From Pseudohongiella sp. (GTDB lineage: Bacteria; Pseudomonadota; Gammaproteobacteria; Pseudomonadales; Pseudohongiellaceae), in contig JAUSCD010000034.1 of the NCBI GenBank assembly GCA_030651695.1, positions 1 through 64,000 of the forward strand: DNA of 64,000 nt. The letters run 5' to 3'. Under the pieces are notes generated by a model. That model was not told the origin of the DNA. It ran no database searches and was given only the letters and a program-made list of their open reading frames with translations. Positions 1-11,586 of this stretch are shown piece by piece. Both the position numbers and the translations under genes were made by a program. The first letter of the stretch is position 1. Every line of letters starts with the position of its first letter.

Positions 1-122
1 GGCAGGATATATTTGCTTACATCGAAATGTTTTACAATCCAGTTCGTCGACACGGAACTAATGGAAATGTGTCGCCGGCCGAGTATGAAAAGAGTTACTT
101 TAAGCAGCTGGGAAGTGTCTAG
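1..122 (+). CDS. IS3-family transposase (OrfB, DDE integrase core), C-terminal fragment
   Basis: Open from the left edge in frame 3 to a TAG at 120-122, giving about 39 residues. The stretch YIEMFYNPVRRHG followed by SPAEYE is the typical C-terminal signature of IS3-family OrfB transposases, after the last acidic residue of the DDE catalytic core. The catalytic residues themselves lie upstream of the window. The protein would carry out cut-and-paste or copy-out transposition of the element whose right end is at 140. Whether the full element is intact cannot be told from here. Confidence 0.8.
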   Translation, partial: QDIFAYIEMFYNPVRRHGTNGNVSPAEYEKSYFKQLGSV

Positions 123-2417: not shown

Positions 2418-2489
2418 ATGAAATCGCTCGATATGTCTTTTTTTGAAAAAGCACTTGATACTGACATTGAGCGTTCTATAGTTATTTAA
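2418..2489 (+). CDS. Possible 23-residue leader peptide of unknown function
   Basis: A short frame, MKSLDMSFFEKALDTDIERS plus three residues, starts 6 bases after GGAAAGGA and stops at 2487-2489, only 11 bases before the GHKL ATPase start. The good ribosome site and close spacing suggest translation and possibly coupling. At this length chance cannot be excluded. No family is recognised. Confidence 0.35.
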   Translation: MKSLDMSFFEKALDTDIERSIVI

Positions 2490-2500
2490 CTGGAGTCGTA

Positions 2501-4684
2501 ATGGCAATACTGAGACCCAAAGCACGGATTATTCGCACAATTGGTGACCAGCTAATCAGTGGCCCAGAAGCCGCGATTATTGAGCTTGTTAAAAATGCTT
2601 ACGACGCCGATGCCAAAAGAGTAAATGTTGAGTTTAGTTACTCATCCGTTTCAGGACTGTCACTTGTTGTAAAAGATGACGGCCATGGAATGACTTTTGA
2701 AGACATTACTGGTAGCTGGCTTGAGCCTGCTACTGATATCAAAGTTAAAAACAGGAAATCCAGAAGTGGCCAGCGAATAGTGCTGGGAGCGAAAGGCATC
2801 GGCCGATTTGCTGTGGCGCGACTAGGGCAGCTAAGCCTAATGAATTCAGTGTCCAAAAGGACATACGATAACTACTTTGAAAAGTCTGCAATACTTATTG
2901 ACTGGAATCAATTTGACTCAGATCGATACTTAGATGACATAGAAATCGATATTCAACGAGAACAAGCAAATCCAGACGAAATGCCAGGTGTGTCCATAGA
3001 AATCACAAAACTCCGCGACAGCTGGACAAAAAGCCAAATCGAAAAACTCATCATAGAGCTGAGACGCCTATCTCAGCCGTCAGAATCAGATAAGTTCAAT
3101 ATTTATCTCAACTTGGAGTGTTTCACTGTAAGCGATCATGGTTTTAACGGAAAAGACATCCTGTTCGAAAACAATCAGAATCTGGATAGCTCCGACCCTA
3201 ACGATTCAGACTCTTCCCTGATAAAGTCTTTTGCAATGGGATCAATAGCTGACTACATAGTCGAAGGTGATTTCGAAGAAGACGGAAAATTTACCGGCTT
3301 TTTCCAGATTATGAAAGGCGATGGGGTAAAGCAGGATTTATACATACCTCCGTCGCAGCCAGCATCAGATGAGAAAGCATGTGGACGAATTGAAGTTAAA
3401 CTAAATATTTTTGACAGGGAGCAAGAATCCATAGAGAAGCTGTTTGAAAGAACGAATATAAAATTTGAAAAAATAGGAATTCGTCGCGCTCGGCGGATCT
3501 TGACAGATCTATCAGGCATTTCAATCATTAGAAATAATTTCAGAATTAGGCCCTACGGTTCCCCAGATCATGATTGGCTTGGATTGCAGGCAAAGAGAGT
3601 CCAAGATCCATCTAAAAAACTGGGTTCTGATCAACTATCCGGGTATGTTGCCATTCAGGATGAGATGGTTTCCGGAATCATTGAGCGCAGCAGCAGAGAG
3701 GGGTTAGAGCTGAATGAGCATTTCAGTAGGTTAAGGTCTCTTTTGGAACAACTACTTCCACATATTGAAGAGAGGCGTTTTGAGTTCAGAGAGAAAGCAG
3801 GTTTAAGCAGACGTCCAGCCACTAACTTAGACAGAGCACGAAAAGCCGCTAATTTCACACAAACATCGAAAGCAGTAGATAAGCTTCCGCCAGAACTCAG
3901 AATCAAGATAGAAAAAGCGATCGAAAAAGACAGTGAATCTCTAAACCAGATGCTTGATGAAGTTGATAGCTATCAGAAACTCCTTCAATCACGTGCATCG
4001 CTTGGCCTAGTAGTGGCGGAGGTGATACATGAAGGGCGGCGGCAACTCAGCCCGATGATGACCTCCATCAAATCATTAAAAAATGATTGGATACATGCAT
4101 TCGAAGACAGCAGAATAGGGGAACTGTATCGAGAACAATTCCCAAGTAATTTAGACATCATTCAAAGCGCTGGCTCTGGTCTAAGCCGTCTTTTCAAACA
4201 GCTTGATCCTGTTTCCGGTCGCAGAAGAGGCCATCCAACTAATATTAATATTAAGGAGGTCGTCAACAATGCCCTTGATTCATTTCGACAATCTATATCT
4301 TCCAACCTAATACATACAGAGACGAATATACCCAACGATTTAATGTTCTTTGGTTTTAGAGAGGACTTACAAGGTGGAGCTCTCAACATTCTTGAGAACG
4401 CGATCCATTGGTTAAAAATTTCAAATTCCGACTCCAGGCGATTGACGATCGCAGCGAAGTCAAATGAAGAAAAAGTTATAATTTCATTTTCCAACAATGG
4501 GCAATCGATTGATGATTCCTATAAAGATCGTATTTTTGACGCCGGATTCTCTCTAAAATCTGATGGCACTGGGCTTGGATTGGCAATAGCGAGGGAGGCA
4601 TGTCGTGCCAGCAAAGGAGAACTTTCCTTGGACGACTCTACAGATGAAACAACATTCATTATTACCTTACCCAAAGGACCATAG
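2501..4684 (+). CDS. Double-GHKL ATPase: MORC/Hsp90-like N-terminus with histidine-kinase-like C-terminus
   Basis: A 727-residue protein with two Bergerat-fold ATPase domains. The N-terminal one (about 1-200) has ELVKNAYDAD (E28, N32, D35), DDGHGM (59-64) and GAKGIGRFA (96-104), as in Hsp90, MutL and MORC-type proteins. A middle region (200-480) has no obvious enzyme motif. A dimerisation/phosphoacceptor-like helix with VIHEGRRQLSP (H510) leads to a second HATPase domain with the N-box NILEN (629-633), DAGFS (680) and GTGLGL (689). Family knowledge: prokaryotic MORC and paraMORC GHKL proteins are described in restriction-modification neighbourhoods. It lacks membrane segments, so any sensing is cytoplasmic. 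It is followed two bases later by a receiver-domain gene and then an EcoRII-type nuclease. Phosphotransfer from H510 is inference. Confidence 0.8.
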   Translation: MAILRPKARIIRTIGDQLISGPEAAIIELVKNAYDADAKRVNVEFSYSSVSGLSLVVKDDGHGMTFEDITGSWLEPATDIKVKNRKSRSGQRIVLGAKGIGRFAVARLGQLSLMNSVSKRTYDNYFEKSAILIDWNQFDSDRYLDDIEIDIQREQANPDEMPGVSIEITKLRDSWTKSQIEKLIIELRRLSQPSESDKFNIYLNLECFTVSDHGFNGKDILFENNQNLDSSDPNDSDSSLIKSFAMGSIADYIVEGDFEEDGKFTGFFQIMKGDGVKQDLYIPPSQPASDEKACGRIEVKLNIFDREQESIEKLFERTNIKFEKIGIRRARRILTDLSGISIIRNNFRIRPYGSPDHDWLGLQAKRVQDPSKKLGSDQLSGYVAIQDEMVSGIIERSSREGLELNEHFSRLRSLLEQLLPHIEERRFEFREKAGLSRRPATNLDRARKAANFTQTSKAVDKLPPELRIKIEKAIEKDSESLNQMLDEVDSYQKLLQSRASLGLVVAEVIHEGRRQLSPMMTSIKSLKNDWIHAFEDSRIGELYREQFPSNLDIIQSAGSGLSRLFKQLDPVSGRRRGHPTNINIKEVVNNALDSFRQSISSNLIHTETNIPNDLMFFGFREDLQGGALNILENAIHWLKISNSDSRRLTIAAKSNEEKVIISFSNNGQSIDDSYKDRIFDAGFSLKSDGTGLGLAIAREACRASKGELSLDDSTDETTFIITLPKGP

Positions 4685-4686
4685 AA

Positions 4687-5862
4687 TTGGCCAATTACAG
4701 ACTTTTAATTGTTGAAGATGACCCAAGTGAAATTTCAACGTGGAAGATGCAAATACCTAGGTATGCAGCAAATCACAATACGGAATTTGAGGCCGATTTC
4801 GCTGACTCAATTTCAAATGCTGAATACTTGATAAAATCCCGGCGCTATGACGCTGCAATAGTCGATATCCGCCTCAAGGGTATCGACGGGACCAGAGATG
4901 CAGGTGCTGACGGTAACAGAGTACGAGAACTTCTCACAAACAGTGAAGTGCTTATTGTTGCTCATATAACAGGTGAACCCGGAGCTATAGAAAACAATTC
5001 TTTTGCAACATCCGGCATTATTAAGGTTTTTGAAAAAGGACAAGTCACCGATACGAAACCTCTGCACGAGGAAATCTTGGACTGGATCTCTTCACACAAG
5101 GTTATGATAGATGCCATCAGAAAGTCTAAAAAAATTATAAAAGAAAAGATGGCATCTCTATTCTTTAGTTCGATTTGGCCAAGGTGGAGAATATGGAGCT
5201 CAGTGACTGGATCGGATGATTTTATTGAAGCCAGCCTAGCAAGACATATATCCTCACATTTGTACGCTGAGCTTTTGGGTAATACTTCTGGCAAAGTTCA
5301 CCCTGAGGAGTGGTACTTTATGCCACCAAACTCCGCCAGATTTCGAGCTGGCGATATATGCAAAAAAGGGGATTCATATTTAGTTCTAATCAGCCCGAGA
5401 TGCGACTTGGAAAGGCCTAATGTTGGAGATACTCTTATTTTCGCAAATCTTCAGGATATCTCCACAATTTGGGTCGAAGAGCTTTCTAAAACCACGTCAA
5501 GGATTGATGAATGCAAAAGAATCATAAGAGAATTGGAAAACGACGCAGCAAGAGTTCAAGCTGAGAATCAAAAAATTTTAAGGGCAGAAGCCTCTTTCAG
5601 GAAACGTTTCTATGGGCACAGCGATGGCAATTTTCGTTTACACTTCATACCACCTATCGCTCTGGCAGAGAACAATATTGTTGGGCCGTTCTACATAGAT
5701 TTTAGTGATATCCACCAAGTAAAGTATGGCCATCCTGATGCTGATAGCTTGTTGGCATCCAGGGTAGCTCAGATTTCACCTGAGTTCTTACCTGCATTAG
5801 TCCAGAGATTAGGGGCGTATATAAGCAGAATTGGTTCACCAGATTACAGTCATATTTATTAA
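4687..5862 (+). CDS. Receiver-domain protein with uncharacterised C-terminal domain
   Basis: A 391-residue protein. Residues 1-130 form a response-regulator receiver domain: acidic pocket EDD (10-12), phosphoacceptor candidate D60 in AAIVDIRLKG, and a switch-like segment VAHITGEPG with a later lysine (KVFEKG). The remaining 260 residues are not a known DNA-binding output; they contain a coiled-coil-like stretch rich in E, R and K (IDECKRIIRELENDAAR). The predicted start is TTG at 4687, after AAAGGA and two bases behind the GHKL stop, so the two are surely co-expressed. It is probably the phosphotransfer partner of the preceding kinase-like protein. The C-terminus may bind the adjacent restriction enzyme or an unknown partner; that is inference. 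Confidence 0.75.
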   Translation: MANYRLLIVEDDPSEISTWKMQIPRYAANHNTEFEADFADSISNAEYLIKSRRYDAAIVDIRLKGIDGTRDAGADGNRVRELLTNSEVLIVAHITGEPGAIENNSFATSGIIKVFEKGQVTDTKPLHEEILDWISSHKVMIDAIRKSKKIIKEKMASLFFSSIWPRWRIWSSVTGSDDFIEASLARHISSHLYAELLGNTSGKVHPEEWYFMPPNSARFRAGDICKKGDSYLVLISPRCDLERPNVGDTLIFANLQDISTIWVEELSKTTSRIDECKRIIRELENDAARVQAENQKILRAEASFRKRFYGHSDGNFRLHFIPPIALAENNIVGPFYIDFSDIHQVKYGHPDADSLLASRVAQISPEFLPALVQRLGAYISRIGSPDYSHIY

Positions 5863-5876
5863 TTAGGCTTTTATTA

Positions 5877-7094
5877 GTGGGTGACGCTGATAAATTAACT
5901 TTGGGGTACTCTTTGGATATTTCAGGTTGGATCGGAGATATTGGCTCAAAAGATTGGCGAGTTTTCATTAAAAGACTTTCTGCCAATGATACAGGTGCAA
6001 CCGGCGGCCACCAAGTAGGCGTGTACATGCCAAAAGTCGTCTTGGGCGCAGTATTTCCGCAATTGACCTCAATCGGCGCCGTAAACCCAGATGTACTTTT
6101 TACAGCAATAGTTGACTCTCATGAGCTACCTGAACAACAACTTCGGGCTATTTACTACAACCAGGGAACTCGTGACGAAAAGCGTATTACACGCTGGGCA
6201 ACCGGCATGGATTATACGCCGTTGCAAGACAAAGAAATGACTGGCTCTCTCGCGATCTTTGCGTTTCATAAACCAGATACTGGGAATGCTGACTTTTTGC
6301 GCGTGTGGGTATGTGCTGATCTGGCAGAAGAGGAAATAGTAGAAGCCCACATCGGCGAACTGGATCCGTCTGATTACTGGTTTGGGTCTGGCCTTGAACT
6401 TACTGGCGTCATTCAATATTCACTTCAATCTTCTTTAACGGCTTTTCCTGAAATCTGGAAAACACAATTCCCATCCGGCAGCGAAATTATTGCACACCTG
6501 TTTACACAGGGGTTTTATTCTGACCTGACAGCAGACAAGCGACTGATAAAACGCCGCGACCATGAATACAAACTGTTTATGAGCGTAGAGTCGTGGCACA
6601 CAATGCCATTGATCAAAGCAGGCTTTGAGAACGTGAATGACTTTATCAATGTTGCGAACTCCATCGCTAACCGCAGAAAATCACGCTCAGGGAAGTCTCT
6701 TGAATTACATCTTGAGTATATCTTCAAGGAAGAAGGCCTGAATGATTTTGGCACCCAATGTAAAACCGAAGGAAACAAAAGGCCCGATTTCATTTTCCCC
6801 GGTTGTGCCGCATATCATGACATGTCATATCCAACCGAAAAACTTCGAGTGCTTGGCGTGAAAACAACAGTAAAGGATCGCTGGCGCCAAATTCTCAATG
6901 AAGCGAGAAGGATTGAAAAGCCGTTTCTTTTCACACTCCAAAATGGAGTTTCAGTGAACCAGTTTCAGGAGATGAAAGATGAAAATGTGACTTTAGTTGT
7001 CCCTGCGGAAATAAAAAAGGCTTTTCCGGCAGCAATAAGAGATGAAATCTACTCTCTGGATCAATTTATTAATGAAACAAAATCCTTGTATTAA
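5877..7094 (+). CDS. ecoRIIR: EcoRII-type (type IIE) restriction endonuclease
   Basis: A 405-residue protein very close in length and motifs to EcoRII, which cuts before CCWGG after binding a second copy of the site. The N-terminal effector-binding domain shows IKRLSANDTGATGGHQVG (31-48) and EKRITRW (101-107). The C-terminal catalytic domain shows NRRKSRSGKSLELHLE (265-280), then RPDF with D304 and VKTTVKDRW with K329 and K333, the PD-(D/E)xK-type residues of this family. The GTG start at 5877 lies 14 bases after the receiver-protein stop. The first 25 residues differ from EcoRII. The gene ends tail-to-tail against vsr, and its cognate methyltransferase is at 7574. No control (C) protein gene was seen. 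Confidence 0.93.
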   Translation: MGDADKLTLGYSLDISGWIGDIGSKDWRVFIKRLSANDTGATGGHQVGVYMPKVVLGAVFPQLTSIGAVNPDVLFTAIVDSHELPEQQLRAIYYNQGTRDEKRITRWATGMDYTPLQDKEMTGSLAIFAFHKPDTGNADFLRVWVCADLAEEEIVEAHIGELDPSDYWFGSGLELTGVIQYSLQSSLTAFPEIWKTQFPSGSEIIAHLFTQGFYSDLTADKRLIKRRDHEYKLFMSVESWHTMPLIKAGFENVNDFINVANSIANRRKSRSGKSLELHLEYIFKEEGLNDFGTQCKTEGNKRPDFIFPGCAAYHDMSYPTEKLRVLGVKTTVKDRWRQILNEARRIEKPFLFTLQNGVSVNQFQEMKDENVTLVVPAEIKKAFPAAIRDEIYSLDQFINETKSLY

Positions 7095-7571
7095 TTAATC
7101 CTGGCTTTGTAGCCCCGGTCCATCGCTGGCAGAAATTTCAACCTCAAGTTCGTTATGTATCACCCAAGTTGCAAGCATGTCTGTCACGACATCAAAAGGT
7201 ATCTTGAACTTTCCTTTTATGGCGCATTCCCAAATTATAGCAACCCGATAACCCCGCCCCAAGCAAGCCTCATAGTTCGCTCGATCCCTGACTACATTCG
7301 CGCTAATCTTCTTCCGCCAGAATTCACTATTGCTGGATGGCCATTTAAACAAATGACATTCATGTCTGTGCCAGAAGCAGCCATTGATAAACACGACGGC
7401 TTTGTATTTTTTGAATACCAGATCCGGTTTTCCCGGGAGTCCGGCGCCTCCAAGAGCATATCGAAAACCCTTATTGAACAAGGCCTTTCTGATCAGAATT
7501 TCCGGGCGAGTATCTTTGCCTCGAATACCCGACATCATTTTGCTGCGCTTTTCTGCAGAGACGACGTCCAA
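7095..7571 (-). CDS. vsr: Very short patch repair endonuclease Vsr
   Basis: A 158-residue protein with the Vsr signatures EKRSKMMSGIRGKDTRPE (7-24), LPGKPDLVF (catalytic D50) and FINGCFWHRHEC. It nicks next to T in T:G mismatches that arise when 5-methylcytosine deaminates, starting short-patch repair of the methylated site. It starts two bases after the stop of the Dcm-type methyltransferase, as in dcm-vsr operons, and protects the CCWGG sites that enzyme methylates from C-to-T mutation. Its stop abuts the stop of the restriction gene on the other strand. Confidence 0.95.
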   Translation of the reverse strand: MDVVSAEKRSKMMSGIRGKDTRPEILIRKALFNKGFRYALGGAGLPGKPDLVFKKYKAVVFINGCFWHRHECHLFKWPSSNSEFWRKKISANVVRDRANYEACLGRGYRVAIIWECAIKGKFKIPFDVVTDMLATWVIHNELEVEISASDGPGLQSQD

Positions 7572-7573
7572 CC

Positions 7574-8797
7574 CTACCCTACTAATCTGAGTTGCGGACT
7601 GGTTTCTGCAGACGACAGGATTTTCTTATTTTCTTCGATATGCGGCTTCATCATCAGAGCAATTGTTGTGATAACCGGCACTACAACCGAGTTGCCAAAC
7701 TGTTTGTATGATTGCGTGTCCGATACGGGGATTCTGAAATCACTCTTGTCCGGCTCCACGTAGCCCATCAACCGCGCACACTCAAGCGGCGTCAGTCGAC
7801 GAGGCCGTTTCCTTTTGCCGCGATCAACCAATATTTCGGAGCCGTCTTTGTAGTAACGCGCAGATAAAGTTCTTGCGACGCTATCAGGACCCACAAGCCC
7901 AAAACCGAAACCATTACCCTGTTCTTTGTGTTTCTTTGCGTAGTTCTGCAGGTACAACCAGAGTTTTTCACTCAGGATGTAATTCTTTGGAACCTGGTCA
8001 TGTGGCTCCAGAATGGAACCCATCTTCTTGTCTTTTGACGGCAGTGTCAGATTGCTCCAACTGAATCCGGTGTCTTTTCTGAAACCAACAATAAAAATAC
8101 GCTCCCGATGCTGGGGTACAAAGTGCGCGGCATCGATGATTTGCGCCTGCACACCCTCATAACCGAGTTCATCCAATGCCTCCATAATAACTTTGAAGGT
8201 TTGACCTTTATCATGGCTTTTGAGATTTTTCACGTTCTCAAGCAAAAAGGCCGCTGGCCTTTTTTCAGCAAGAATTTTTGCAACATTAAAAAACAGTGTG
8301 CCCTGCGTTGCATCTTCAAAACCATGTTTCCTGCCGAGAGAATTCTTTTTTGAAACACCCGCAATAGAAAATGGCTGGCATGGAAAACCGGCCAGCAATA
8401 CATCATGATCAGGAATATCTGATGGATTTACCTTGGTAATATCACCGGCAATTTCCTCATCAAGAGGAAGATAGTGATTTGCGGCATAAGTACGCTGGGC
8501 GTAGGCATCCCACTCGCTGGTAAACACACAGGAACCACCAATCGATTCAAAACCTTTACGAATCCCACCAATTCCTGCGAACAGATCAATAAAGGTAAAG
8601 TCAGGTTTTTCATAATGCTTGGGCCTCTGAGGCAACATTTCCCGAAGACTGAACTCATACTGATCAGGGATGTTGACGCGGCCCTTCAGCCAGCGATTTA
8701 CCTCCTCTCTCGATAAGCCAAGATGGTCCGCAACAACCTGTTGGGTAAAGATAAAACACACTCGCTCAAGCAACTTATTGATTCGTCTCTGTTCCAT
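7574..8797 (-). CDS. dcm: DNA (cytosine-5) methyltransferase, Dcm/M.EcoRII type
   Basis: A 407-residue C5-methyltransferase with ordered motifs: I DLFAGIGG (71-78), [10 protein letters not shown] (nucleophile C140), [33 protein letters not shown] and [11 protein letters not shown]. It would methylate the inner cytosine of CCWGG and protect the host from the EcoRII-like nuclease. Residues 18-42 ([20 protein letters not shown]) look like an N-terminal helix-turn-helix; related enzymes use such an extension to repress their own promoter. AAGGA lies eight bases before the ATG. An imperfect palindrome, GTGATAATATGTCAC (8826-8840), just upstream is a possible operator. It is co-transcribed with vsr. 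Confidence 0.93.
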
Positions 8798-9029
8798 AGC
8801 ACTGATCCTTCGCTGAGATATCTGCGTGATAATATGTCACACGTTATTCCCAGAGGCAAACTTAAATTGTTGTCGTTCAGATGGATTTTAGCCTAATTAC
8901 TGTTTTTATATACAGCTGTTTTTTTTACGAATCATTTTTGTGAGCAACTCTCTGTCTTGCCAACTACACTTCAAAAGTCAGCCATGTTTTTATGCCTGAC
9001 ATATCATTAACTAACAAGGAGTGTTAACC

Positions 9030-9179
9030 ATGATTGAACTTACAAACGCAGAGGTATCACAAGTCAGCGGTGGATTAGGGCCACTGGCGGTGATCGGAAT
9101 TGATCTTGCTTTAAACGGGGTGCTGATTGCCTATGCAGCCTTCATGACGTCTGACTACATGACAAGAGGCGATTCCTGA
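9030..9179 (+). CDS. Double-glycine leader peptide, candidate class II bacteriocin/microcin precursor
   Basis: A 49-residue frame with a strong ribosome site (AAGGAG at 9016-9021, eight bases before the ATG). It begins MIELTNAEVSQVSGG, a textbook double-glycine leader, and is followed by a 34-residue core starting LGPLAVIGIDLALNG with a hydrophobic centre and charged tail. Such leaders are cut after GG by the peptidase domain of an ABC exporter. No such exporter is in the window, so processing would be by genes elsewhere. A second peptide with the same 15-residue leader layout lies at 15805. A hairpin follows at 9186-9215. Antimicrobial activity is inferred from architecture alone. Confidence 0.65.
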   Translation: MIELTNAEVSQVSGGLGPLAVIGIDLALNGVLIAYAAFMTSDYMTRGDS

Positions 9180-9185
9180 TAAGCG

Positions 9186-9215
9186 CCCTGCCTGAATTCA
9201 GGCTTTCAGGCAGGG
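9186..9215. terminator. Hairpin between convergent small genes
   Basis: CCCTGCCTGAA (9186-9196) pairs perfectly with TTCAGGCAGGG (9205-9215) around an eight-base loop. It lies seven bases after the peptide stop and before the opposing small membrane gene. It lacks a strong T-run, so it may act as a processing or weak bidirectional terminator structure. Confidence 0.55.
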
Positions 9216-9236
9216 TCAAGGGTTGAGCTACAAGGT

Positions 9237-9452
9237 TCATGAAGATGACTTGATTGCCAGCACAACGCCTGACAATAGCGCGGCAACAACAGACCAGGTG
9301 ACAACTCCGCCCGACAACAGCTGATCGGGTGCAAGTAGAGATATGGCAAGAGCGCCGGATGCCATTACCAGGCAGAGTACCAGTTTCAGTGCCGGCCATG
9401 ACATTCCAGTTGAATTCAACTTGTTCGATTTAATTTTGTACTTATTGTTCAT
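9237..9452 (-). CDS. Small two-helix membrane protein; possible immunity protein
   Basis: A 71-residue protein with a basic N-terminus (MNNKYKIKSNK) and two predicted membrane helices, about residues 18-40 (WPALKLVLCLVMASGALAI) and 48-67 (GVVTWSVVAALLSGVVLAI). GAGGTG lies about eight bases before the ATG, which supports translation. It is convergent with the double-glycine peptide gene 57 bases away. Small membrane proteins of this kind often give self-immunity next to bacteriocin genes, but the opposite orientation weakens that link. No named family is recognised. Confidence 0.55.
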   Translation of the reverse strand: MNNKYKIKSNKLNSTGMSWPALKLVLCLVMASGALAISLLAPDQLLSGGVVTWSVVAALLSGVVLAIKSSS

Positions 9453-9554
9453 GACGTTTTCACCTCGATGGTTTTTTCTACGATCACATCAGGTTTATAG
9501 TTGGCACTAGCACCATAAGCAAATTCAATCATTACTGCTACAAGAGAGGCCACC

Positions 9555-9869
9555 ATGCGCCAGATCAGCCCGATCACACCCGGCGAACTGCTGAAAGAAG
9601 AGTTTCTGTATCTCATGGGGATCACTCAATACAGGCTTGCCAAAGAAATTGGCGTGCCTGCTCAACGCATCGGCGAAATCGTCGCTGGCCGGCGTTCCAT
9701 TTCTGCAGATACTGATCTGCGACTCAGCAGGTTTTTTGGTTTAACCGATGGCTACTGGTTGCGCGCACAGGTGGCTCACGATATTGAGTTGGCGAAAGAT
9801 GTACTGGCTGAGCAGCTGAAAGCCATCAAGCCCTGGAATGCTTCTGAGGATGAGACTGCCTCCGGCTGA
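9555..9869 (+). CDS. higA: HigA-family antitoxin (XRE helix-turn-helix), without adjacent higB
   Basis: A 104-residue protein with the HigA/VapI signatures ITPGELLKEEFL, the helix-turn-helix GITQYRLAKEIGVPAQRIGE and ADTDLRLSRFFGLTDGYWL. In higBA systems it binds and neutralises the RelE-fold toxin HigB and represses the operon. HigB normally lies directly upstream; here only about 100 bases separate it from the previous opposing gene, with no toxin frame in them. It is therefore an orphan antitoxin or regulator. A GAGAGG sequence sits just before the ATG. Confidence 0.8.
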   Translation: MRQISPITPGELLKEEFLYLMGITQYRLAKEIGVPAQRIGEIVAGRRSISADTDLRLSRFFGLTDGYWLRAQVAHDIELAKDVLAEQLKAIKPWNASEDETASG

Positions 9870-9890
9870 GGCGCCCACACCGGCATAGAA

Positions 9891-10010
9891 ATCCTCACAA
9901 TCATGAGGATTTCACCCAAACCAATTCACTCATATCAAAAATCCTCACAATCAAAAGGATTTCTTGCAAACCGACCTATCAAGGCGCAAAATCCTCACAA
10001 ACATGAGGAT
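9891..10010 (+). promoter_or_regulatory. Three tandem HipB operator palindromes with an exact 50-bp period
   Basis: Three 20-bp sites start at 9891, 9941 and 9991: ATCCTCACAATCATGAGGAT, ATCCTCACAATCAAAAGGAT and ATCCTCACAAACATGAGGAT. Sites 1 and 3 keep ATCCTCA...TGAGGAT arms; site 2 has a degenerate right arm. The third ends five bases before the second hipB start. E. coli HipB recognises TATCC/GGATA half-sites, so these are very likely the operators of this module. The spacing places all three on nearly the same DNA face. Confidence 0.75.
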
Positions 10011-10015
10011 TAACT

Positions 10016-10282
10016 ATGCAAATACCCGTTAAATCGGCCGACGCCGTTGGCAAAATCGTACGCGCCAGCCGCAAAGCCCAGAACATCCGTCAGGATGATG
10101 CCGCAGGCAGTATCGGTGTCAGTGAAAATTTCCTTGGCAAAATTGAGCGCGGCGGCGAATCAGTGCAATGGGGCAAACTCTTTCAGGTGCTGGATGGCCT
10201 CGGCATACGTGTTGTTCTGGACGTGCCGGAGAGTGTTGCAGACCACATTAGCCAACAACATAAATCTCAGGCTAAATCATGA
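10016..10282 (+). CDS. hipB: HipB antitoxin/repressor (module 2)
   Basis: An 88-residue XRE-family protein. The helix-turn-helix is at about residues 10-65 (GKIVRASRKAQNIRQDDAAG, then ENFLGKIERG). This closely matches canonical E. coli-type HipB, including the closing strand GIRVVLDVPE. The start at 10016 lies only five bases after the third operator palindrome, so bound HipB should block both promoter and ribosome access. The stop overlaps hipA by ATGA. It is shorter and different in sequence from the module 1 HipB, so cross-regulation is unlikely. Confidence 0.88.
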   Translation: MQIPVKSADAVGKIVRASRKAQNIRQDDAAGSIGVSENFLGKIERGGESVQWGKLFQVLDGLGIRVVLDVPESVADHISQQHKSQAKS

Positions 10283-11586
10283 ATGGCCGCTCACTGACCG
10301 CCTGGATCAACCAGACACCGGTTGGCACACTGCAGGAAGTTGATGGCCTGTGGAGTTTCCGTTACTCGAACGACTGGCTGACTAACCCGCGCTGTTTTTC
10401 ACTCAGCCCGCATTTGCCGCTGAGCTCAGAACCCTTGCCGGACGGCGCCAGTCAACGTCCCGTGCAATGGTATTTTGACAATCTTTTACCCGAGGAAGGA
10501 CAACGGGTTTTGCTTGCCCGCGATGCCCGGCTGGATGTTGCCGACGCGTTTGGTTTGCTGACTTTTTACGGTGCAGAGTCAGCCGGTTCACTGACACTGT
10601 TACCGCCCGGCACTGAACCTGTCGCTACAGAGCCATTGCAGCCGCTGACAGACATCATGTTGCATCAGCGAATTCAGCGGTTGCCAAAAGCACCGTTAAC
10701 ACAGGGCGCTGTGAAACGCATGTCGTTGGCAGGCGCTCAGCACAAACTGGCGGTGGTGTTACAAAACAATGAACTGTTTGAACCGGTCGGTGCAACGCCG
10801 TCCACACATATTCTGAAACCTGATCACCCTGACGAGGACTATCTTCACTCTGTGATCAATGAGTGGTTTGTTATGCGACTGGCAAAACGGTTGGGGCTTG
10901 ATGTGCCGGAGGTTCACAGGCGTTATGTGCCCGCCCCTGTTTATGTCATTGATCGTTTCGACCGCGTTAAAGAATCCGACGTCTGGCAACGCCGGCATGT
11001 GATCGATGCCTGTCAGTTGCTGGGGCTGGACCGCAGTTTTAAATACAACCAGGGCAGCATGGAGAATCTGGCGGCGCTGGCTAATGCCTGTCGAAGTCCT
11101 GCGGTGGCACGCTCACGCCTGTTTGCATGGCTGATCTTTAACATTCTTGTTGGCAACAGCGATGCACATCTCAAAAATCTAAGCTTCACGGTTTCTCATG
11201 AAGGCATACAACTGGCGCCTTTTTACGATCTGCTCTGCGTCGCCAGTTATGACACGCCGACTTACAACAAAAACCTTTGGCCAACGCAAACGCAGTTGGC
11301 CTGGCCGGTTTTGGGTGTACACCACTTTTGCGACATCAACCGTCAGCTACTGCTAGCTGCCGGAGCCGTATTGAATTTGACCAGAGCAACGGCTGAACGT
11401 TTGCTGGAAAATCTGCGCAGCCGCATCGTTCAGGAGGCAGATAAACTGTACGCGGAGATTGAAGCTGACAATGCAGCCATTCAGCAGATTCACCCTCACC
11501 TTACTGCCACTATGATCGCGGAAGCCCACAGCCTGCGGTCGATTGTGCACGCCATTATCAAGGACATGGCAGTACGGCTGGCATAA
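10279..11586 (+). CDS. hipA: HipA serine/threonine kinase toxin (module 2)
   Basis: A 435-residue protein of canonical HipA length and order. An N-terminal subdomain (about 1-110) includes WYFDNLLPEEG. The loop GAQHKL is at 152-157. The kinase core has VIDRFDR, catalytic GNSDAHLKN (from residue 292, D295) and PFYDLL (D317). It would phosphorylate an aminoacyl-tRNA synthetase-type target and cause growth arrest when not held by HipB. It differs clearly from module 1 HipA (407 residues), so this is not a recent duplication. The gene is intact and overlaps hipB by four bases. It ends 18 bases before a convergent esterase gene. Confidence 0.9.
   Translation: MNGRSLTAWINQTPVGTLQEVDGLWSFRYSNDWLTNPRCFSLSPHLPLSSEPLPDGASQRPVQWYFDNLLPEEGQRVLLARDARLDVADAFGLLTFYGAESAGSLTLLPPGTEPVATEPLQPLTDIMLHQRIQRLPKAPLTQGAVKRMSLAGAQHKLAVVLQNNELFEPVGATPSTHILKPDHPDEDYLHSVINEWFVMRLAKRLGLDVPEVHRRYVPAPVYVIDRFDRVKESDVWQRRHVIDACQLLGLDRSFKYNQGSMENLAALANACRSPAVARSRLFAWLIFNILVGNSDAHLKNLSFTVSHEGIQLAPFYDLLCVASYDTPTYNKNLWPTQTQLAWPVLGVHHFCDINRQLLLAAGAVLNLTRATAERLLENLRSRIVQEADKLYAEIEADNAAIQQIHPHLTATMIAEAHSLRSIVHAIIKDMAVRLA

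Follow-up and report, generated by a model that had tools for sequence, protein, structure and literature searches.

Gene pairs that join a GHKL-type, histidine-kinase-like protein to a receiver-like protein have been connected with restriction before. The available text of PMC8011034 (2021) describes such adjacent genes under the names HEF_HK (PF19191) and Response_reg_2 (PF19192), gives their linkage as 91.6% over 644 regions, reports an excess of restriction-modification genes nearby (C5-cytosine methylases, Vsr, and EcoRII-C are named), and suggests a signalling process that controls restriction. As far as its available sections go, PMC2292703 (Iyer 2008) places MORC and paraMORC ATPases in restriction operons, together with EcoRII-like nucleases and VP1/RAV-type DNA-binding proteins. 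Because of these two papers, the general idea of a restriction-linked kinase pair is already in print. We analysed a pair of this kind in a stretch of 64,000 nucleotides from Pseudohongiella sp. (assembly GCA_030651695.1, contig JAUSCD010000034.1, positions 1 to 64,000; hereafter the window), in which a kinase-like protein with two GHKL ATPase domains and a receiver protein precede an EcoRII restriction enzyme. Our preferred reading, held tentatively and with less than even confidence, is that the pair would be a DNA-reading phospho-switch in C5-methylase restriction systems, with exchangeable nucleases, here coupled to EcoRII.

The kinase-like protein (727 residues; 2501..4684, + strand) comprises an N-terminal HATPase_c_3 domain, a middle region, an H-box with H510 (HEGR), and a C-terminal HATPase_c domain. 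After a gap of 2 bases, a gene with a TTG start (4687..5862, + strand) encodes the receiver protein (391 residues), made of a receiver domain with D60, long helices, and an output domain (about residues 199-391). The EcoRII homologue (405 residues, GTG start; 5877..7094, + strand) follows 14 bases further on and has both domains of the type IIE enzyme, the DNA-binding EcoRII-N (residues 24-166, 147.3 bits in Pfam) and the nuclease EcoRII-C (234-398, 215.5 bits). Convergent to these three genes lie those of a Vsr very-short-patch mismatch endonuclease (158 residues; 7095..7571, - strand; Pfam Vsr, 101.2 bits) and a Dcm-type C5-cytosine methylase (407 residues; 7574..8797, - strand; Pfam DNA_methylase, 285.5 bits). 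The methylase scores 327 bits against the NCBIfam model TIGR00675 dcm (cut-off 100.65) and 512.7 bits against PRK10458, under the cut-off of 710. With an EcoRII-N plus EcoRII-C enzyme, a Dcm-type methylase, and Vsr, the locus resembles the type IIE EcoRII system; EcoRII is not known to have a kinase-receiver partner. An earlier note on this DNA had described the double-GHKL protein, the 2-base and 14-base spacings, and the convergent vsr and dcm; all five predicted genes lie where it put them, and Pfam agrees with its domain assignments apart from the receiver domain, which scores under the cut-off. Its statement that MORC/paraMORC GHKL proteins occur in restriction-modification neighbourhoods agrees with the available text of PMC2292703.

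Pfam recognises both ATPase domains of the kinase-like protein (HATPase_c_3, 62.5 bits, best stretch 22-120; HATPase_c, 71 bits at 628-725) and found no HisKA-type dimerisation/phosphoacceptor domain in it. We aligned 102 kinases, after dropping three of 105 kinase-labelled frames for low coverage. H510 is unchanged in all 102 rows, as are N32, G96, and K98 of the N-terminal ATPase and N629, N633, G667, G691, and G693 of the C-terminal one, while the positions after H510 vary (E511 in 90/102, G512 in 85/102, R513 in 80/102). NCBIfam matches residues 11-215 best to the BbrUII/HgiDII restriction-enzyme model, although the 73.1 bits lie far below the cut-off of 550; the best result of PADLOC is a partial match of 29.9 bits to a restriction-enzyme model. 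The protein has the HATPase_c_3-type GHKL domain with conserved motifs that marks MORC/paraMORC ATPases. It is like those of PMC2292703, in the text available, in bearing this N-terminal domain within operons that contain C5 methylase, Vsr, EcoRII-like nucleases, and VP1/RAV-type proteins, but it also has a histidine-kinase core, which includes H510, and is partnered by a receiver.

At least 60 additional N-terminal residues are present in 13 kinases, eight of which were scanned with Pfam (all but L017, L021, L094, L103, and L107). Those of L017, L102/L103, and L107 seem to result from reading frames drawn too long. By our own reading, a similar extension of about 200 residues is common to L018, L021, L024, L094, L095, and L096; it had no Pfam match in the four members scanned.

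The published pair shares with that of the window the adjacency of the genes, the combination of HATPase_c_3 and HATPase_c, the conserved His and Asp, and a neighbourhood of C5 methylase and Vsr. We nevertheless rejected membership of the window pair in PF19191/PF19192, as both models missed it: the kinase has no match to PF19191 (cut-off 24.1 bits) at E 10, the sole match in the source genome lying elsewhere (13.2 bits), and the receiver protein has no match to PF19192 (cut-off 27 bits). Ten proteins of relatives gave none over either cut-off (one weak match, L003, 14.2 bits to PF19192). A control from a viral contig (L110) matches both models strongly (kinase, 92.5 bits to PF19191; partner, 136.7 bits to PF19192), and the test therefore works. 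Because both models missed, the window pair is a sister group to the restriction-linked two-component-like pairs already in the literature. The H-box differs in type: it is mostly HEGR-like in the present family and HEF in L111/L112, whose receivers cluster with that of the Pfam-positive L110. Profile alignments between the two families fall in the C-terminal output domain.

We surveyed related loci with an alignment of seven kinases (A2) in genome contigs (best 80 of 476 relatives) and viral contigs (20 loci). The scans, the window, and three loci of a plasmid collection make 104 loci, from which we set aside 14 distant viral ones (L100-L113, the published family included). The remaining 90, window counted, are the top-scoring relatives and not a random sample; they were ranked by kinase similarity alone, and methylase-linked members were among the seeds. 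The receiver gene lies directly downstream of the kinase gene in 88/90 loci, and the two frames are at most 30 nt apart in 88/88 pairs. A C5 methylase is directly adjacent in 68/90 loci, at most three genes away in 76/90, and anywhere in the locus in 80/90; where three genes are available on both sides, it is within three genes in 58/64. The six others of these 64 are L010, L017, L018, L024, L066, and L089, and in L010 and L089 the available stretch holds no methylase at all. In 57 loci, the methylase gene is directly upstream on the same strand, and it overlaps or abuts the kinase frame in 51 of them, a count of overlaps that may be overstated because the frames were drawn from the first start codon. 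Kinases of the family were found across many phyla of bacteria as well as in two assemblies of archaea.

Vsr is at most three genes away in 37/90 loci. In one cluster, of six loci (L026, L027, L028, L059, L068, and L085; one representative was identified by Pfam), the gene after that of the receiver encodes an HhH-GPD-type protein, and the domain was found in 7 of 116 scanned neighbour proteins. Perhaps the HhH-GPD protein replaces Vsr in the repair of deaminated 5-methylcytosine (5mC).

Within the window's phylum, we sampled 398 genomes, the source genome among them. The full-length receiver family is present in four (the source genome, G302, G353, and G517), and the remaining 21 matches cover a receiver domain alone. 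Methylase, kinase, and receiver genes stand in series in G302 and G517, and in G353, Dcm-Vsr-EcoRII faces receiver-kinase. A plasmid collection gave three receiver matches and a phage collection none.

EcoRII as the standard partner of the pair was rejected: the enzyme adjoins the pair in 2/90 loci, the window being one. A scan of the survey loci with the window EcoRII gave matches in two further loci. In a sample of 398 genomes of the window's phylum, EcoRII-N was found in 13; the 12 besides the source genome include eight full-length EcoRII genes and one partial (L134), and one of the eight has the pair adjoining (L135, in G353). In the phylum of L074, seven of 395 genomes, that of L074 counted, have EcoRII-N; the other six hold a full-length EcoRII, none with the pair adjoining. 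The flanks of L210 are cut because its contig measures 4.3 kb, and L208 has a receiver-like frame about 7.6 kb from EcoRII. Overall, an EcoRII enzyme adjoins the pair in the window, in L135 (43% identical), and in L096, in three gene orders, and this joining is rare but recurrent.

A second type of link is fusion. The kinase of L065 starts with an EcoRII-N domain (residues 4-85, 50.4 bits in Pfam), that of L074 has the same N-terminal architecture (52.5 bits), and in both genomes the fused copy is the single EcoRII-N match. The kinase of L096 bears a weaker EcoRII-N-type domain (20.9 bits, below the cut-off of 25), and the locus has an EcoRII-C enzyme as well, encoded separately and with no EcoRII-N match in Pfam. 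Such fusions belong to the present family and were not met in the available text of PMC8011034. On a kinase tree of 95 rows, made by a quick method with LG+G4, the five EcoRII-linked kinases (window, L135, L096, L065, and L074, a label that pools EcoRII neighbours and EcoRII-N fusions) require five changes, each forced by starred branches. A single gain followed by many losses may also account for the EcoRII links on this tree.

In a separate row at L207:4939-8953, a MORC-like GHKL gene, a standalone EcoRII-N protein (141 residues), and a helicase-like, SWI2/SNF2-like gene are consecutive (the GHKL and SWI2 names come from our reading of the sequences). This row adjoins a complete Dcm-EcoRII-Vsr set.

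Exchange of the predicted nuclease is seen inside the window's own clade of the kinase tree (six members, support 100), where the neighbour is EcoRII, Eco29kI/GIY-YIG-like, GmrSD_C, or LEM-3-like GIY-YIG. In L015, the Eco29kI/GIY-YIG-like nuclease stands beside the methylase (Eco29kI 24.0 bits, under the cut-off of 30.8; GIY-YIG 23.7, cut-off 22.6), in L016, a GmrSD_C protein adjoins the methylase (52.9 bits), and in L014, the gene directly before that of the kinase encodes the LEM-3-like GIY-YIG protein (29.7 bits, cut-off 27). There was no nuclease among the few proteins scanned in L017 and L022. Elsewhere in the survey, seven loci have a GHKL/Z1/DUF4420/AIPR set close to the pair, and an eighth has the Z1 and DUF4420 genes of this set (one representative per cluster was identified; L050 for Z1), and an HNH_2 protein is near the pair in a three-locus cluster. 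For 116 other close neighbours from 52 loci, the 25 commonest of 109 Pfam families include type I subunits, ResIII, GmrSD_N, HNH_2, and one HpaII, along with unrelated genes. L015 also has FRG and GmrSD_N genes immediately ahead of the kinase gene (8190-9982).

These neighbourhoods bear on what the earlier note had proposed. Its suggestion that the pair is a switch of a restriction system is partly supported: the conserved two-gene unit, the intact ATPase motifs, the invariant His and Asp as candidates for phosphorylation, and the methylase link favour it, and the further EcoRII links and the three EcoRII-N-type fusions strengthen the connection. The view of the pair as chiefly an EcoRII accessory is not supported, given the 2/90 loci and the pair's presence beside just 1/14 other full-length EcoRII genes. 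The general idea had been published in 2021 for the sister family (PMC8011034, in its available text).

Several observations weigh against a phospho-switch coupled to EcoRII. The pair is missing beside 13 of the 14 other full-length EcoRII genes in the two phyla sampled, and EcoRII acts alone in known systems. The EcoRII label is as scattered on the kinase tree as shuffled labels are (mean 4.9 changes), and this quick tree has long branches, that of L065 being the longest end branch. Besides L074's own, no EcoRII-N::kinase fusion was found among the 395 genomes of its phylum; the sources of L065 and L074 are metagenome assemblies, and that of L096 is a contig of viral origin. Finally, most of the 90 loci have no demonstrated nuclease, in a scan that covered the 116 neighbours from 52 loci and was tallied without locus names, and the pair may therefore do something other than licensing a nuclease.

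The receiver domain of the receiver protein scores under the Pfam cut-off (20.1 vs 30.2 bits), and PADLOC gave the protein no match. In alignment A4, which holds 76 of 92 receiver-labelled frames after a length filter (L023, L028, L059, and L010-L012 were left out), D60 is invariant (76/76) and the other receiver positions are well kept (E10 73/76, D11 72/76, T/S95 75/76, K/R117 74/76). In the model of the whole protein (predicted local distance difference test [pLDDT] 90.9, predicted template modelling score [pTM] 0.84), the receiver domain is followed by long helices and a C-terminal domain; structure searches with this model returned receiver-domain matches in the PDB and in a viral library. 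The output domain has seven invariant residues of its own (E208, G222, P237, C239, R381, G383, and P385, each 76/76), and D240 is conserved in 66/76. A comparable domain, in which a Cys-Asp and an Arg-x-Gly are invariant, stands at the C-terminal end of the receivers in two further sets (A7 and A8). With hhalign, the output-domain profile aligns to the third receiver set, A8, at E 4.6e-08 (probability 94.9%); the comparisons with A7 (three sequences, published family) are weak (A5, E 0.0002 and probability 46.6%; A4, 34 columns aligned and probability 38.6%). The output domain is probably common to other receiver families.

The main rival explanation is one that we regard as possible though doubtful: methylase, kinase, and receiver would form a complete defence, in which the kinase detects unmodified DNA, the MazF-like output is the effector, and EcoRII is merely a neighbouring second enzyme. 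A methylase in most of the 90 loci and the 88/90 without an EcoRII enzyme favour this explanation, and the invariant output residues and the similar domain in two other receiver sets fit with it. When the output domain was modelled alone (pLDDT 90.8), the five best Foldseek matches in the PDB were MazF or MazF-complex chains, with target-normalised template-modelling (TM) scores of 0.65-0.71. The match is weak (best E 0.044, target TM 0.71), none reaching E 0.001 or better in the PDB; a profile search of the PDB with the domain gave nothing below E 0.22, and Pfam found no family in more than 3/76 output domains (among the 25 of 41 families listed, all are weak, best E 0.0033). A MazF/PemK sequence match is absent (hhalign probability 0.95%). 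The MazF profile (A9) has a near-invariant R26 and P27 ahead of the second strand; this conserved Arg is catalytic in MazF, and the output domain has no conserved counterpart. It also differs from MazF/PemK toxins in its own invariant residues and in a helical hairpin between strands. We therefore rejected a MazF identity by sequence, on the hhalign value and the missing Arg, and keep the likeness in fold as a lead: the modelled domain may be MazF-like in fold, with a weak score. The EcoRII-N-type fusions, which suggest a tie to the reading of DNA sites, also speak against a self-contained trio.

Seen as an ordinary two-component system, the pair would regulate the transcription of the restriction genes, an explanation that we find improbable. 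Restriction genes need tight control, and a receiver and a kinase core are present, but the output domain has neither a good Pfam family nor a PDB match at the thresholds given above, a MutL/MORC-type ATPase occupies the place where a sensor domain usually sits, and the fusions involve a DNA-reading domain.

Under the phospho-switch that we prefer, the MutL/MORC-like N-terminal GHKL domain would bind ATP and close on DNA. A site reader would aim it: here the EcoRII N-domain, acting in trans, and in some relatives an EcoRII-N-type domain fused to the kinase. DNA with sites that lack the cell's 5mC mark would hold the closed state. The C-terminal kinase domain would then phosphorylate H510, the phosphate would pass to D60, and the phosphorylated receiver, through its output domain, would license the partner nuclease (EcoRII here, others elsewhere) or act alone. 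Going by a title cited in PMC4652773, EcoRII is reportedly autoinhibited through its effector-binding fold, which would give a control point. What the sequences themselves offer towards this scheme is an operon-like unit, both sets of ATPase motifs, the invariant His and Asp, the methylase association, the nuclease exchange, and the fusions; we infer each of its steps, for which CglI/NgoAVII and VcSduA may serve as precedents. The pair may thus sense DNA and control restriction. A more specific version seems unlikely: a phosphorelay-gated module in which a MutL/MORC-like kinase reads site methylation via its own or its partner's B3-type domain and switches a MazF-fold output by His-Asp transfer, with the output arming the nuclease of the locus or attacking the infected cell. 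In this version, a two-component signal that can be separated from the nuclease would tell self from non-self DNA.

In CglI/NgoAVII, according to the available text of PMC4267653, B3-bearing R-proteins trigger a partner ATPase. The division of labour between a B3-domain site reader and a separate ATPase is as proposed for the window, but in that system the ATPase is of DEAD-Z1 and the nuclease of PLD type. VcSduA (PMC12137116, available text) likewise joins a GHKL ATPase to a nuclease, and its defence against phages requires both activities; it differs in being one fused protein with its own PD-(D/E)xK nuclease, and no receiver is described in that text. A figure legend of PMC13092281 (2026) shows predicted defence systems whose domains still await validation, HATPase and receiver domains among them; these may or may not belong to the present family. 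The family boundary, the EcoRII-N-type fusions, the nuclease exchange in one clade, and the conserved output domain with its MazF-like model were not found in the available portions of the papers retrieved.

The usual picture of type II restriction is of two enzymes that stand alone. A conserved kinase-receiver unit that keeps to the methylase through changes of nuclease, and that has acquired a DNA-reading domain of nuclease type, would mean gating by a signalling step. This would give a widespread kinase family a testable function and make the output domain a place for a new effector or regulator.

The composition of the locus raises the question of mere co-residence. The guanine-cytosine (GC) content of the cassette is 42-45%, vs 53% past base 10000, and at third codon positions (GC3) it is 0.38-0.49, vs 0.57-0.59 in three flanking genes; the cassette therefore looks acquired. 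In the source genome, the C5-methylase family has a single match, the window dcm, and EcoRII-C likewise has one; the one full-length receiver homologue is that of the window, a second match spanning the receiver part alone. Given the single methylase match and the deviating GC and GC3, the association of the genes goes beyond chance, and the observation is confirmed as real and partly known. The pair and the EcoRII set could still be bystanders, two independent defence units in one mobile low-GC cassette, with the pair uncoupled from EcoRII. The acquired look of the cassette, the 13/14 other EcoRII genes without the pair, and the absence of a receiver homologue from five other genomes of the same genus and six of the same family that were compared are in keeping with this. 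We consider it distinctly unlikely in view of the shared strand with gaps of 2 and 14 bases, the EcoRII links on separate branches of the tree, and the EcoRII-N-type kinase fusions.

Some smaller features surround the cassette. Promoter-like hexamers (10/12) precede the kinase gene at 2455..2482 (+ strand), a weak candidate, as the scan gave fewer such sites than its shuffles. An open frame of 23 residues (2418-2489, + strand), 11 nt ahead of the kinase start, could be a leader peptide or chance. At 9030-9179 (+ strand), a 49-residue peptide has a putative double-glycine-type leader (EVSQVSGG) and presumably resembles a bacteriocin precursor, and the end of an open frame at 1-120 (+ strand) presumably corresponds to the C-terminus of an IS3-type transposase. 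Pairs of a helix-turn-helix gene and a HipA-like gene (Couple_hipA and HipA_C in Pfam) flank the restriction cassette on both sides, at 647-2172 and 10016-11586.

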